The notes beneath the pieces were generated by a model. That model ran no database searches, was not told the origin of the DNA, and worked only from the letters and a program-made list of their open reading frames with translations. A stretch of DNA of 64,000 nucleotides from assembly GCF_900111005.1 (NCBI RefSeq), contig NZ_FOFV01000006.1:310001-374000 (forward strand). The letters are read 5' to 3'. The stretch's first letter is position 1. The number at the start of each line of letters is the position of its first letter. Of the stretch, positions 1-7,201 are shown one piece after another. Origin of the DNA: Lentzea albida (GTDB lineage: Bacteria; Actinomycetota; Actinomycetes; Mycobacteriales; Pseudonocardiaceae). A program made the position numbers and the translations under genes.

Positions 1-788
1 TCTCGGACGTGAGGTTCGCCTACCCGTCCGCGGACAAGGTCTCGCTGGCGTCGCTGGAGGAGGTGGCGTCGCTCGACACGCGGGGCGGCGAGGAGATCCT
101 GGGCGGGGTGTCGTTCACCGCCGAACCCGGTTCGCTGATCGCACTGGTGGGCGCGTCCGGTGCGGGCAAGTCGACCATCGCCTCGCTGGTGCCCCGCCTG
201 TACGACGCGGACTCCGGGACGGTTCGACTGTCCGGTGTGGACGTTCGCGACCTGTCGTTCGACTCGATCCGCGAGACCGTCGGCATGGTGACGCAGGACG
301 GCCACCTGTTCCACGAGTCGATCGGCGCGAACCTGCGCCTCGCCGCCCCCGCCGCGACCGACGAGGAGATCTGGGACGCGCTGACCCGCGCCAGGCTGGC
401 GGACCTGGTGTCGTCGCTGCCCGACCAGCTCGACACCGTGGTGGGCGAGCGCGGCTACCGCCTTTCCGGCGGAGAACGGCAGCGGCTCACCATCGCCCGG
501 CTGCTGCTGGCCAAGCCGCGCGTCGTGATCCTGGACGAGGCGACCGCGCACCTGGACTCGCGTTCGGAGGCCGCGGTGCAGGAGGCGCTGGTCGAGGCGC
601 TGGCGGGCCGCACGTCGCTGGTGATCGCGCACCGGCTGTCGACCATCCGCGCCGCCGACCAGATCCTCGTCGTCGACCACGGGCAGGTCGTCGAACGTGG
701 TACGCATGAAACTCTGCTGGCGAAGGAAGGCCACTACGCCAAGCTGTACCGCACTCAGTTCAGCGAAGAACCGATCGGAGCGCCGTGA
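1..788 (+). CDS. ABC transporter ATP-binding domain (5' end outside window)
   Basis: Nucleotide-binding domain of an ABC transporter, probably the C-terminal part of a fused permease/ATPase exporter half-transporter. The frame is open to the window edge, so the GTG at position 9 is unlikely to be the true start. Counting from that GTG, the Walker A motif GASGAGKS is at residues 48-55, the Q-loop Gln at 96, the signature LSGGE at 152-156, Walker B VVILDEA at 172-178 and the switch His at 208. All catalytic elements are present. The stop codon overlaps the start of the next gene by four bases (GTGA), which indicates translational coupling with the acetyltransferase. Substrate is unknown; the coupled partner suggests export of a drug-like or secondary metabolite molecule, which is inference. 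Confidence 0.9.
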
Positions 789-2602: not shown

Positions 2603-4483
2603 ATGGAGTACGACCGCTACTGCGACCTGACCATGCGCGGCGGCACCACCAGCGGGGTCGTGTACCCCCTAGCGGTCGCCTCGCTGGCCCGCCACTACGA
2701 GTTCCGGCAGATCGGCGGCGCGTCGGCGGGGGCCATCGCGGCGGGGTTCACCGCGGCGGCCGAGAGAGGGCGTGCGTCCGGTGGCTTCGAGAAGCTGGCC
2801 GGGCTGATCGACTGGTTCACCTCCGGGTCGGGCGCGGAGCGGTGGCGGATGGCGCAGCTGTTCCAGCCCGCCGAGAAGACGCGGGCGCTGTACCGCATCG
2901 TCATCGCCTCCATGCAGAAGCGGGAGACGACCGGGCGGAGCGCGATCACGTGCCTGTTCTTCGCGTTGCTGGGTGCGGTCGGGTGGCGGGCGAAGTCGGT
3001 GCTCGCGCTGATGGCGTTGCTGTGGCTGGGCGGGCCCGTGCTGTACTCGGCGTGGCTCGCGCCGTCGGCGTATCCGGGGTGGCTCGCGGTGGTGGTCACC
3101 GTGGTGGCGCTGGCGTGCGTGGTGATCGTGCTGTGGCCGTTGCGGTCAAGTCTGCCCTGGCCCGCCTGGGTCTTCGCGGTCGTGCCGCTCGTGCTCGGGC
3201 TGGCGTTCTCCCGCCACCACGCGACGGCGGCGGTCGTGCTGCTGGTGTGGCTGGTGCTGTCACTGGCGGCGGTCAGCGCGCTGTTCGTGACGTACGGGTA
3301 CGCGATGCAGCGGTTCCTCAAGGACCACGCGCGGTCCATCCACTTCGGACTCGTGCCCGGCACCGGTGACTACCGGCCGTCGTGGCTCGACCGGCTCTCG
3401 GGCGTGCCGAAGTCGACGGGGGTGCCGCCGCTCGCCGACTGGATCGCCGACCAGCTCGACGACATCGCGGGCACCTCGGAGGCGTTGACGTTCGGCGACC
3501 TCGGTGACATCAACCTCGTGCTGATGACGACCGACCTGTCGGAGGGGCGGCCGTACCGGTTGCCGTTCAAGGAGGAGTGGCAGTACTGCGAGGAGTGCCT
3601 CGGGTACGTGCTGCCCCGCAGGGTCGTCGAGCAGATGAACGGCGCCAGGACCTCGGGCAAGTGCCCGCTGCACGAGCACATGCCGTTGCGCGCGCTGCCT
3701 CCCCGCGAACAGCTGCCCGTCGTCCTCGCCGTGCGGATGTCGCTGTCGTTCCCCGGCCTGTTCGCCGCCGTGCCGCTGTGCCGGGACGGGCGCGTGCACT
3801 GGTTCTCCGACGGGGGCATCACCAGCAACTTCCCGATCCACTTCTTCGACACGCTGCTGCCGCGCTGGCCCACGTTCGGCCTGAGCCTGCAGCCCTACCC
3901 GAACGGCGACACGGACGAGGTCTGGCTGCCGGAGCAGGACGCGTCCACGTCCGGCACGCCCTACGCGGCCCTGAACTCCGCGCCGGGCTTCGTGGTGTCC
4001 ATCCTGAACACCTTCCTGGACTGGCGCGACACCATGCAGTCCGCGCTCCCCGGCTACCGCGGCCGCATCGCGCACGTGCGGCAGAGCGGCGACGAGGGCG
4101 GCTCGAACCTCTTCATGCCGCCGGAGACGATCAAGCGGCTGGCGCTGCGCGGGCAGAAGGCGGGCGACCTGTTGCGCGAGCGGTTCGTGCAGCAGCGCAA
4201 CACCGACCGCTACCGCTGGATCCGCCTGCGCATGGCCCTGCGCGAGTACCAGGCGCTCGGTGTGCAGGCCGCCGACCGCGACGCGCTGTACGACGAGCTG
4301 CTCGCGCGGTTCGAGATCCCCGCCGAGCTGCACGAGTGGTTCCGCACTCCCCCTGCCGACGGCGACCCGTTCCGCGCGGAGATCGAGGTCGCGCTGGACC
4401 ACGTCGGGCGGTTGAAGGACGACGGGCCGTTCGACGGGGTGCCGCCGGTCGACCCGGATTTGCGGCTGACGCCACCCGAGTAG
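2603..4483 (+). CDS. Patatin-like phospholipase with inserted membrane segments
   Basis: Patatin-family serine lipid acylhydrolase of 626 aa. The oxyanion Gly-rich motif is RGGTTSG near residue 12, the nucleophile elbow GGASAG has Ser41, and the catalytic Asp of the DG dyad is Asp403 (FSDGGITSNFP). Between the two catalytic elements, residues 115-235 hold about five hydrophobic stretches predicted to span the membrane, an insertion absent from soluble patatins. A Cys-containing region (YCEECLGY with SGKCPLHEH, residues 329-358) might bind metal. I chose the ATG at 2603 because the patatin fold begins there; the open frame upstream is not patatin-like. Probably a membrane-anchored phospholipase or acylhydrolase; the substrate is unknown. 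Confidence 0.85.
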   Translation: MEYDRYCDLTMRGGTTSGVVYPLAVASLARHYEFRQIGGASAGAIAAGFTAAAERGRASGGFEKLAGLIDWFTSGSGAERWRMAQLFQPAEKTRALYRIVIASMQKRETTGRSAITCLFFALLGAVGWRAKSVLALMALLWLGGPVLYSAWLAPSAYPGWLAVVVTVVALACVVIVLWPLRSSLPWPAWVFAVVPLVLGLAFSRHHATAAVVLLVWLVLSLAAVSALFVTYGYAMQRFLKDHARSIHFGLVPGTGDYRPSWLDRLSGVPKSTGVPPLADWIADQLDDIAGTSEALTFGDLGDINLVLMTTDLSEGRPYRLPFKEEWQYCEECLGYVLPRRVVEQMNGARTSGKCPLHEHMPLRALPPREQLPVVLAVRMSLSFPGLFAAVPLCRDGRVHWFSDGGITSNFPIHFFDTLLPRWPTFGLSLQPYPNGDTDEVWLPEQDASTSGTPYAALNSAPGFVVSILNTFLDWRDTMQSALPGYRGRIAHVRQSGDEGGSNLFMPPETIKRLALRGQKAGDLLRERFVQQRNTDRYRWIRLRMALREYQALGVQAADRDALYDELLARFEIPAELHEWFRTPPADGDPFRAEIEVALDHVGRLKDDGPFDGVPPVDPDLRLTPPE

Positions 4484-4501
4484 GCGCGCTAACCTGGTGC
4501 C
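4466..4501 (+). promoter_or_regulatory. Promoter for the leader peptide and PheS-like ligase
   Basis: A -35-like CTGACG at 4466-4471, an 18-base spacer and a -10 TAACCT at 4490-4495 lie six bases before the GTG at 4502. This spacing is typical of actinobacterial leaderless transcripts, so the mRNA probably starts at or very near the GTG of the short leader ORF. Confidence 0.5.
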
Positions 4502-4549
4502 GTGACGCGATTTAGCCACCCCCGACCTGCGTGGGTGGCGCGCGCCTGA
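4502..4549 (+). CDS. Putative leader peptide (15 aa)
   Basis: Short ORF starting with GTG and encoding MTRFSHPRPAWVARA, placed directly behind a good -10 box without room for a ribosome binding site, hence probably leaderless. It ends 57 bases before the PheS-like gene and its coding sequence contains one arm of the competing stem-loops in the region. That arrangement is the hallmark of ribosome-dependent attenuation or translational control. The peptide holds single Phe, His and Trp codons and two Pro codons, but no run of one amino acid, so the sensed signal is not obvious. Confidence 0.5.
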   Translation: MTRFSHPRPAWVARA

Positions 4550-4602
4550 AACTTCCCGTTGGTCGGGGGACTCCGCACCCACCGGACCAAGCGAAACGGG
4601 AA
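4515..4602 (+). promoter_or_regulatory. Attenuator-like competing stem-loops upstream of the PheS-like gene
   Basis: Several mutually exclusive pairings are visible by eye. GCCACCC (4515-4521) pairs with GGGTGGC (4533-4539). CCCCCGACC (4519-4527) pairs perfectly with GGTCGGGGG (4561-4569). GTGGGTG (4531-4537) pairs with CACCCAC (4576-4582). TTCCCGTT (4553-4560) pairs with AACGGGAA (4595-4602), which would mask the ribosome binding region just before the ATG at 4607. Ribosome position on the leader ORF would decide which pairs form. The mechanism is inference; the complementarity is directly seen. Confidence 0.55.
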
Positions 4603-4606
4603 CCCC

Positions 4607-5635
4607 ATGTACCGCACCGAAGAACTCGTGCACGCCCTGAACGTCCGCGACCTCACCGATCCCGCGCAGGGCCCGCACGCGCTGCAGCTGCTGATCGCCG
4701 ACCTGACAGCGGTGCTCGACGCCCCGCTGGAAGTCCGCCACCACCCGCTCGTGCCGGTCGAGCACAACTACGAACACCTGGGCTACCCGCCGGACGCGAT
4801 CACCCGGGACGCCCGCTACACCCGGTACGTCAGCGAGACCTGCATGCTGCGCAGCCACACCTCGGCGATGATCCCGCCCGCGCTGAAACACGCGAAGCCG
4901 GACGTCACGCTCGTCTGTCCCGGCCTGGTCTACCGCCGCGACGCGGTCGACCGCCTGCACACCGGCACGCCGCACCAGCTCGACGTCTGGCGCATCAGCG
5001 AGCACGAGGAACCGCTCGACGACCTCATCCACCGGGTCGTTACGACCCTTCTACCCGGGAAGCGTTACCGCACAACGGATGCCGACCACCCGTACACCAC
5101 GCACGGCAGGCAGATCGACGTCGAGCACGACGGGCAGTGGGTCGAGGTCGGTGAGTGCGGACGGGCCGCGCGGCACGTGCTCAGGCACCACCCGCACGGC
5201 CTCGCGATGGGACTCGGGCTGGACCGGATCCTGATGCTGCGCAAGGGGATCCCGGACATCCGGCTGTTGCGCAACGAGGACCCGCGGATCGCCGCCCAGA
5301 TGCTCGACCTCACGCCGTACCGGCCGATCTCGAGGCACCCGGCCGCGATCAGGGACATCTCGATCATGGCGGACGTCGGCGAGGACGCCGAGACGCTGGG
5401 CGACCGCATCCGCGAACTGGTGCCCGAGGACGTCGTCGAGGAGATCGAGATCCTCGGCGAGACGCACACCGAACAGTTGCCGGCACACGTCCGAGAACGG
5501 CTGAACGCGTTGCCCGGTCAGAAGAACGTGCTGATCCGCGTGACGATGAGGGCGCCGGAGCGCACCCTCACCGACCGCGAGACCAACGAGATCAGGGACA
5601 GGCTGCTTCAGGGCTTGCGGGCGACCGCGCCGTAG
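4607..5635 (+). CDS. srmL: PheS-related mystery ligase with C-terminal ferredoxin-fold anticodon-binding domain
   Basis: 342-aa protein with a class II aminoacyl-tRNA-synthetase core resembling PheS, fused to a C-terminal domain like the FDX-ACB domain of PheT (from about residue 245: RHPAAIRDISIMADVG to the end). The core shows the YVSETCMLRSHTSAMIPP segment (Phe-synthetase-like motif 2 area) and a Gly-rich GLAMGLGLDRILMLRKGI motif 3. It lacks the PheS N-terminal coiled coil and no PheT gene lies nearby, so it is not the housekeeping enzyme. It matches what I recall as the PheS-related mystery ligase (SrmL) of actinobacteria, which may aminoacylate something other than tRNA-Phe. A leader peptide and competing hairpins precede it. 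The 3' end overlaps the convergent methyltransferase by 28 bases. Confidence 0.8.
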   Translation: MYRTEELVHALNVRDLTDPAQGPHALQLLIADLTAVLDAPLEVRHHPLVPVEHNYEHLGYPPDAITRDARYTRYVSETCMLRSHTSAMIPPALKHAKPDVTLVCPGLVYRRDAVDRLHTGTPHQLDVWRISEHEEPLDDLIHRVVTTLLPGKRYRTTDADHPYTTHGRQIDVEHDGQWVEVGECGRAARHVLRHHPHGLAMGLGLDRILMLRKGIPDIRLLRNEDPRIAAQMLDLTPYRPISRHPAAIRDISIMADVGEDAETLGDRIRELVPEDVVEEIEILGETHTEQLPAHVRERLNALPGQKNVLIRVTMRAPERTLTDRETNEIRDRLLQGLRATAP

Positions 5636-6490: not shown

Positions 6491-7201
6491 ATGCATTCCA
6501 GCACCGCTGAACGCCACGCGCGATTCCGCCTCCTCAGGGAACGCTCGCCGGTGCACTTCGACGCCGATATCGGTGGCTGGTGCATCACCCGTTACGACGA
6601 CGTACTGAGAGTGCTCGACCTCGATTCCGGTGCCCCGCAGCCATTACCCAAACGGGCTATCACGCACGCGCTCAAGCTCACCCGGCCGGTGATCACGCTC
6701 GCCACCCTCGAACTGCTCGACGCCGACGACGTCACGTTCGCGCACTCGCTCGCGGCCACGGCGGCCGAGGCGTTCACGCTCGCGCACGGCGTGGAGGCGT
6801 TCGCCGCGACGGCCTTGGAGACGACGCGGGCGTTCCTCACCAACGCCTTGGCCGCGCTCCAAGAACACCCCGATCAGGCGACGCTGCTCAGGACCGACCC
6901 GAGCACCACCAGGGACGCGGTCGAGGAGTTGCTGCGGTTCGACACCCCGATCCCCGTCGCTCCCGCCCGCCGGACGCCCGTCCCCGTCGTGCTGAGCGGG
7001 CGTACGGTCGAAGCGGGTGAGGTGCTCGTGCCGCTCGTCGCGGCCGCCAACCGGTGCTCGGTGAGATTTCCCGGCGGCGACCGCCTCGACCTGCGGCGCA
7101 AGCCCGTGGGCGTGCTGTCGGCGTGCCCCACGAGCACGGCGCTCGCCCGCGTGACCGGCGAGATCGCGCTGGTCAAACGCCTGAGGGCGGTTGCTCGCTG
7201 A
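6491..7201 (+). CDS. Shrunken, degenerate cytochrome P450-like protein
   Basis: 236-aa protein showing parts of a bacterial P450: an N-terminal YDDVLRVL segment, TTRAFLTNALAALQEHPDQ corresponding to the I-helix end, an ExxR-like EELLRF (K-helix) and EAGEVLVPLVAAANR. It is some 150-170 residues shorter than a normal P450. The I-helix AGxxT motif is absent, and the heme-binding loop (normally FGxGxHxC) has become VGVLSACPTSTALAR, with a Cys one residue out of register relative to the conserved Arg. Catalytic heme ligation is doubtful. The frame is intact and codon usage is normal, so it may be a maintained non-enzymatic paralogue or a recent relic. Confidence 0.65.
   Translation: MHSSTAERHARFRLLRERSPVHFDADIGGWCITRYDDVLRVLDLDSGAPQPLPKRAITHALKLTRPVITLATLELLDADDVTFAHSLAATAAEAFTLAHGVEAFAATALETTRAFLTNALAALQEHPDQATLLRTDPSTTRDAVEELLRFDTPIPVAPARRTPVPVVLSGRTVEAGEVLVPLVAAANRCSVRFPGGDRLDLRRKPVGVLSACPTSTALARVTGEIALVKRLRAVAR

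Follow-up and report, generated by a model that had tools for sequence, protein, structure and literature searches.

A phenylalanine-codon leader and alternative RNA helices before the phenylalanine-free ligase gene srmL suggest a ribosome-controlled attenuator

The gene srmL, which encodes a PheS-related ligase almost devoid of phenylalanine, is preceded in Lentzea albida and its relatives by a short leader ORF with a conserved Phe codon, followed by RNA segments predicted to pair in mutually exclusive ways. The best explanation, with a probability of roughly 0.7, is ribosome-mediated attenuation in which a shortage of Phe-tRNA would induce a PheRS-like backup enzyme whose own translation does not depend on Phe-tRNA. 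On comparison of the sequences, the kept Phe codon, the Phe-free enzyme and a phage leader with four Phe codons all point to Phe-tRNA as the signal.

The srmL locus

The elements of the locus in the 64-kb Lentzea window, by which the whole stretch of DNA analysed is meant, are collected in Table 1. The sequence-only reading had described a -10 box six bases before a GTG, a 15-codon ORF starting there and a leader segment with an exact complement downstream, and all of these are present. Leader codon 4 is the only Phe codon in the leader-srmL message of the window. Taken alone, the locus is weak: its 141-nt fold (4466-4606) has a z score of -1.40, and 20 of 200 shuffled sequences fold equally well. 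It is the comparison across srmL loci that makes the observation real. A generic promoter and terminator scan of this region of the window detected nothing, and Rfam elements (T-box and leader families) gave no match at gathering score in the window or in seven related loci.

Elsewhere in the window, positions 785-1420 encode an acetyltransferase close to the Vat family of streptogramin acetyltransferases, whose score of 241 bits stays under the curated cut-off of 300. A 236-aa frame at 6491-7201, perhaps a shortened P450, aligns with cytochrome P450 profiles in their later part alone.

Table 1. Elements of the srmL locus, in window coordinates
Feature	Position	Strand	Evidence or remark
-10 box TAACCT	4490..4495	+	6 nt upstream of leader start codon; presumed leaderless start
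Leader ORF, 15 codons, GTG..TGA, MTRFSHPRPAWVARA	4502..4549	+	start and stop codons exchange among homologues
Conserved Phe codon TTT, proposed sensor	4511..4513	+	TTT in 87/94 and TTC in 7/94 leaders
In-leader hairpin 1:2, 5' arm GCCACCC	4515..4521	+	helix class supported by own-versus-swapped test
Segment 1, CCCCCGACC, partner of segment 3	4519..4527	+	own versus swapped, 0/5000
In-leader hairpin 1:2, 3' arm GGGTGGC	4533..4539	+	own-versus-swapped test
Segment 3a, TTCCCGTT, complementary to Shine-Dalgarno region	4553..4560	+	SD:3a, 0/4000 swaps match observed
Segment 3, GGTCGGGGG, exact complement of segment 1	4561..4569	+	own-versus-swapped test
Segment 4, AACGGGAA, srmL Shine-Dalgarno region	4595..4602	+	own-versus-swapped test
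srmL, 342 aa, PheS-related mystery ligase SrmL (NF051887), zero Phe	4607..5635	+	profile match

A conserved micro-ORF upstream of srmL

The comparison covered 96 srmL loci: the window, 22 named loci (21 Lentzea and one Nocardia sp.), G002 from the same genus and further loci obtained by searches, duplicates being discarded. In 94 of them the motif F-x-x-P occurs in a leader ORF upstream of srmL. The two misses are L091, in which RRFTGPLA is present but no stop codon follows within 40 codons, and L121, a srmL copy whose match lacks the first 79 family positions. In 88 of the 94 loci a -10 box of the form TANNNT stands 6-7 nt before an in-frame leader start, the spacing expected of leaderless messages. 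The full pattern of -10 box, 6-7 nt, start codon and F-x-x-P micro-ORF, found at these 88 sites, has no further instance in the 841,334 strand-bases that these loci comprise, and within the window the box, start and motif come together only at position 4502. A motif search of 20 genomes matched each of the 12 Lentzea genomes once, at srmL, and returned two extra matches (G010:C33 and G090:C1). The canonical pheS of the same genome, read by eye, has no such leader upstream.

The leaders vary among loci: start codons (GTG in 50, ATG in 44) and stop codons (TGA in 64, TAG in 27, TAA in 3) are exchanged, and length changes come as 3-nt indels. The distance from the leader start to the srmL start falls in all three phases within the genus, so the stretch after the leader is noncoding. 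The rare codon TTT predominates at the leader Phe position (Table 1), whereas each of the 15 Phe codons in the 94 srmL bodies is TTC. The sequence-only reading was right that the Lentzea leader contains no codon run, but the single Phe codon in it is conserved.

Could the leader peptide, rather than its Phe codon, be what the locus uses? Macrolide-resistance leaders work by peptide-mediated ribosome arrest, and an R-F-x-x-P peptide might likewise arrest its ribosome, perhaps with a small molecule, in which case the Phe codon would be no tRNA sensor. F and P do stand at a fixed spacing in all 94 leaders, an invariance that is partly by construction since the search pattern demanded F-x-x-P, and Arg precedes the Phe in 69 of the 94. 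However, Trp, Leu, Ser, Phe, Ala and Thr are found there as well, the Pro codon lies inside the paired segment 1 so that RNA pairing accounts for it, and the phage leader described below carries FNFFFSH with no R-F-x-x-P. Peptide arrest would also leave the Phe-free enzyme unexplained, and is highly improbable.

Two further observations concern the leaders. The codon immediately 5' of the Phe codon is the rare Arg codon CGA (4508-4510 in the window) in 68 of 94 leaders. Several srmL copies look decayed, being shortened, split or interrupted by an in-frame stop: L121 (G689), L122 (G555), L123 (G650), L125 (G081), L126 (G044) and L127 (G030). The leader is retained at all of these copies but L121, where the beginning of srmL is missing as well.

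SrmL, a PheRS relative almost free of phenylalanine

The window protein scores 465.4 bits against NCBIfam NF051887 (curated cut-off 300) and stays below the cut-offs of the PheS profiles. Among 89 full-length SrmL proteins (320 aa or more; five shorter ones, with one Phe together, were set aside), 79 have zero Phe, six have one and four have two, giving 14 Phe in 32,267 residues, or 0.04%. Tyr (2.35%) and Trp (1.17%) are both present. PheS, by contrast, is Phe-rich, with 22 Phe in the 355 residues of the protein from the same genome. The 28 coding-like frames of at least 300 codons in the window average 3.1% Phe, the srmL frame being the lowest, and the one Phe codon of that frame lies upstream of its start codon.

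Mitochondrial PheRS is the best sequence match of SrmL, in both the catalytic and the C-terminal parts. It is also the best match (3cmq, 3tup), C-terminal part included, in a fold search with the SrmL AlphaFold model, which is itself modest (mean pLDDT 66, pTM 0.52). The two share a single chain, a class II core and a C-terminal domain; they differ in sequence (20-23% identity over the fold matches), in HPY standing for FPF and in the absence of Phe from SrmL.

The FPF of the PheS pocket is HPY in all 89 full-length proteins, FHQ is PHQ in 88 of the 89, and in at least 38 of 40 aligned SrmL sequences FHQxE has become PHQxD and GGCG has become xECG. With HPY in place of FPF, and HYY in the phage protein, the substrate of SrmL may differ from that of PheS and may not be Phe. 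A reading in which the attenuator senses Phe-tRNA while SrmL loads another amino acid on tRNA-Phe, or performs another reaction, draws on these replacements and agrees with the NCBIfam name "mystery ligase". It is possible, if somewhat unlikely: the loss of F from FPF and FHQ can also follow from a purge of Phe from the whole protein, and SrmL keeps the motif 2 and 3 arginines, Gln124 and the C-terminal part that resembles mitochondrial PheRS. Most likely SrmL would be a single-chain PheRS-like enzyme that recharges tRNA-Phe.

Alternative helices between leader and gene

Pairing was analysed in 92 of the 94 loci, L057 and L118 being excluded because the chosen srmL start lay at least 200 nt away. 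A covariation count on a MAFFT alignment was out of register, and pairing was instead assessed by comparing the score of each locus's own partner segments with that of partners swapped between loci. Segment 1, 8 nt after the Phe codon, occurs as 14 ten-base variants among the 92 loci. With one locus per variant and every swapped pair re-optimised, segment 1 pairs with its own downstream sequence at a mean score of 15.86, against 13.13 (sd 0.67) for swapped sequences, and none of 5000 permutations was as good. This is the clean form of the 1:3 test; the version on 43 divergent representatives is biased to own pairs, since segment 3 was located using the locus's own segment 1.

On the same 43 representatives, no swap in 4000 reached the own score either for helix 1:2 inside the leader or for the helix between the Shine-Dalgarno region and segment 3a (SD:3a), and a control pairing of the Shine-Dalgarno region with the leader was equalled by 1680 of 4000. 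The part of the leader from F+13 to the stop codon pairs with its own 3a better than in all but 2 of 4000 swaps, a test run on 36 of the 43 representatives, seven having been dropped for a weak SD:3a helix. Two further helices are weak: F+12..33 with 3a (137 of 4000 swaps as good) and segment 3 with the bases that precede the Shine-Dalgarno region (130 of 4000).

Together, these results support a set of mutually exclusive helices, 1:2, leader:3a, SD:3a and 1:3, one of which would block expression. The leader would either fold on itself as 1:2 or pair with 3a and 3, whereas 3a has the ribosome binding site as an alternative partner, which it would then mask. The sequence-only reading had the last of its pairs mask the ligase ribosome binding region; masking of the Shine-Dalgarno region stands, by segments 3a and 4, but the leader pair is not what masks it. 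Its wider proposal of a ribosome-controlled attenuator agrees with the leader ORF at 94 of 96 loci, the 3-nt indels, the start and stop codon exchange and the covarying exclusive helices. The homologue comparison that it had offered as its own check thus turned up both a conserved ORF and covariation, and did not refute the idea.

Distribution, plasmids and a phage version

SrmL is patchy. The cut-off is exceeded by 26 of 394 genomes in the class, 63 of 297 in the family and 2 of 396 in the phylum (the genome of the window counted each time), and all 24 genomes of the genus that were searched have the gene. More distant copies have leaders of their own. The srmL of a Glutamicibacter plasmid follows the leader MSWQQRFSSPRPGNGRGVLDVRL and encodes 0 Phe in 372 residues; that of an Azotobacter plasmid follows MNNRSHRFSRPWVRSDQDRAARA, with 1 Phe in 370 and a terminator-like stem plus T-run. 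In G1081 (L145) the leader is MVEHRRRFVSPPEVRGASRWR and SrmL has 0 Phe, and in G807 (L146) a shortened srmL gene follows MAASQRRRFPCPPVVRGVERRSR. On Glutamicibacter nicotianae pGnB68 (L144, 4311-7092), the gene next to srmL carries the annotation of a chloramphenicol efflux transporter. A Corynebacterium diphtheriae plasmid (OV884290.1, 11582-12202) encodes the C-terminal 58% of a SrmL relative at 49% identity, with no gene listed there.

A search of viral contigs with two queries found no relatives. A srmL gene with its leader lies at 2859-4068 of a 635-kb record labelled 'uncultured phage' (L147, LR745206.1; 29% GC over 7 kb), whose protein has 0 Phe in 359 residues. The leader of this gene, MNTNTTFNFFFSHKMV, lies outside the F-x-x-P search pattern and was found by eye; it has TATAAT 4 nt upstream, four Phe codons and a terminator, and its fold lies 5.45 sd below shuffled sequences. 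When the RNA was folded without the second arm of the terminator, 1:2 formed in the absence of a ribosome (P 0.87), 2:3 formed whichever of the four Phe codons the ribosome occupied (P 0.99; 0.00 with it at the stop), and neither formed with the ribosome at the stop. In the full RNA the terminator prevails in all three ribosome states folded. In these folding models the order 1:2, 2:3, terminator is that of a textbook attenuator, in which shortage would turn the gene on.

How the switch would work, and in which direction

In the proposed mechanism, the transcript would open with the start codon of the leader, which a ribosome would begin to translate immediately. With charged tRNA-Phe plentiful, the ribosome would pass the Phe codon and cover the second half of the leader, leaving 3a free of the leader to pair with the Shine-Dalgarno region, so that srmL would be off. 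With charged tRNA-Phe short, it would wait at the Phe codon, on the start of segment 1, and block hairpin 1:2; the remaining leader could then hold 3a, the Shine-Dalgarno region would stay open and srmL would be on. Because the srmL message needs no Phe-tRNA, SrmL could be built during the very shortage that it answers.

Does folding bear out this direction? Equilibrium profiles with the ribosome masked over each codon in turn showed no clear switch. The mean cost of opening the Shine-Dalgarno region at equilibrium is 7.3 kcal/mol in free RNA, 6.95 with a ribosome at the Phe codon and 5.5 with one at the stop (7.6, 7.8 and 4.9 for Lentzea), so that in the actinobacterial RNAs the site stays closed when the ribosome is at Phe and the proposed direction is unsupported at equilibrium. 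Since equilibrium folds fail to give it, the direction rests on co-transcriptional order. In transcripts ended at segment 3, the probability that upstream sequence holds 3a is 0.61 for a ribosome at Phe but 0.21 for one at the stop; the value at Phe is the higher of the two in 25 of 36 loci and the lower in 3. As 3a starts a median of 5 nt past the leader stop and the stop mask overlaps part of it, this contrast is the expected classical effect and no independent proof. Further points count against the preferred explanation: free RNA holds 3a (P 0.63) much as RNA with a ribosome at Phe does; helix 1:3 covaries strongly though a ribosome at Phe would partly cover it; most leaders hold a single Phe codon; the complete phage RNA folds into its terminator in each of the three ribosome states; and HPY in place of FPF may mean a substrate other than Phe.

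The equilibrium values would fit a switch of opposite sense, in which 1:3 pairing opens the ribosome binding site while a ribosome is near the leader stop and a halt at Phe keeps srmL off, so that abundant Phe-tRNA would be the condition for making SrmL. The opening cost falls with a ribosome at the stop, in 22 of 24 Lentzea loci, and does not with one at Phe; helix 1:3 covaries strongly; and in the Azotobacter RNA the terminator has an equilibrium probability of 0.99 for a ribosome at Phe, 0.02 for one at the stop and 0.0007 for free RNA, opposite to the proposal. Yet the lowered cost is partly trivial, because the stop mask covers part of 3a, the phage version folded as it is made shows the classical order of helices, and a Phe-free enzyme has no obvious use under plentiful Phe-tRNA. 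This reversed sense is distinctly unlikely. In Azotobacter RNA that still lacks its last arm, 2:3 forms both when the ribosome is at Phe and when it is absent. We infer induction by shortage of Phe-tRNA, a direction that rests mainly on the phage version and the Phe-free enzyme.

Relation to known systems

A close known parallel is pheM of E. coli, in the relevant passage of PMC5371410 a Phe-rich attenuator leader before the PheRS gene with alternative stems set by charged tRNA. The pheM/pheST and srmL loci share a leader peptide with Phe codons before a PheRS-type gene and the alternative stems. The Phe-rich pheM acts through transcription termination, whereas srmL has a leaderless ORF with a single Phe codon and a Shine-Dalgarno region that is masked; the phage version of srmL is close to pheM in anatomy. 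Among actinomycetes, the auxiliary TrpRS1 of Streptomyces coelicolor is reportedly under ribosome-mediated attenuation (Vecchione and Sello 2010). That attenuator reportedly responds to Trp and is transcriptional, in which it differs from srmL. The likeness lies in a second, auxiliary synthetase with a leader attenuator in an actinomycete. A review table lists TrpRS1 of S. coelicolor for indolmycin resistance.

According to a section of Fasani and Savageau 2014 (PMC4209129), enzymes that must work during a shortage avoid the residue that is short. In the same section the last enzymes of the Phe pathway have a positive cognate bias (median +4.6), and Phe is not among the low-bias cases given there. 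Those cases are biosynthetic enzymes, whereas SrmL is a synthetase relative purged to near-zero Phe. A 2005 survey of actinobacterial RNA elements describes, in the passage concerned, elements for Trp, Cys and branched-chain genes and ileS, and that passage reports no conserved structures upstream of phenylalanine operons. Among the titles listed in searches of an open-access literature collection, none deals with SrmL or with a synthetase that lacks Phe.

Significance

The odds lean slightly towards SrmL being a self-starting rescue synthetase, mobile, single-chain and Phe-purged, whose message would be opened by the halted leader ribosome and which would restore charging after PheRS failure. 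Its presence on plasmids and in a phage record suggests that it may also protect mobile elements from loss of Phe-tRNA. Two independent clues, the Phe-codon leader and the Phe-free enzyme, give the named "mystery ligase" family a testable function. If true, SrmL would clearly exemplify a stress enzyme that does without the amino acid whose shortage it answers, and its leaders would form a class of leaderless translational attenuators in actinobacteria, with a terminator in the versions of an Azotobacter plasmid and a huge phage.
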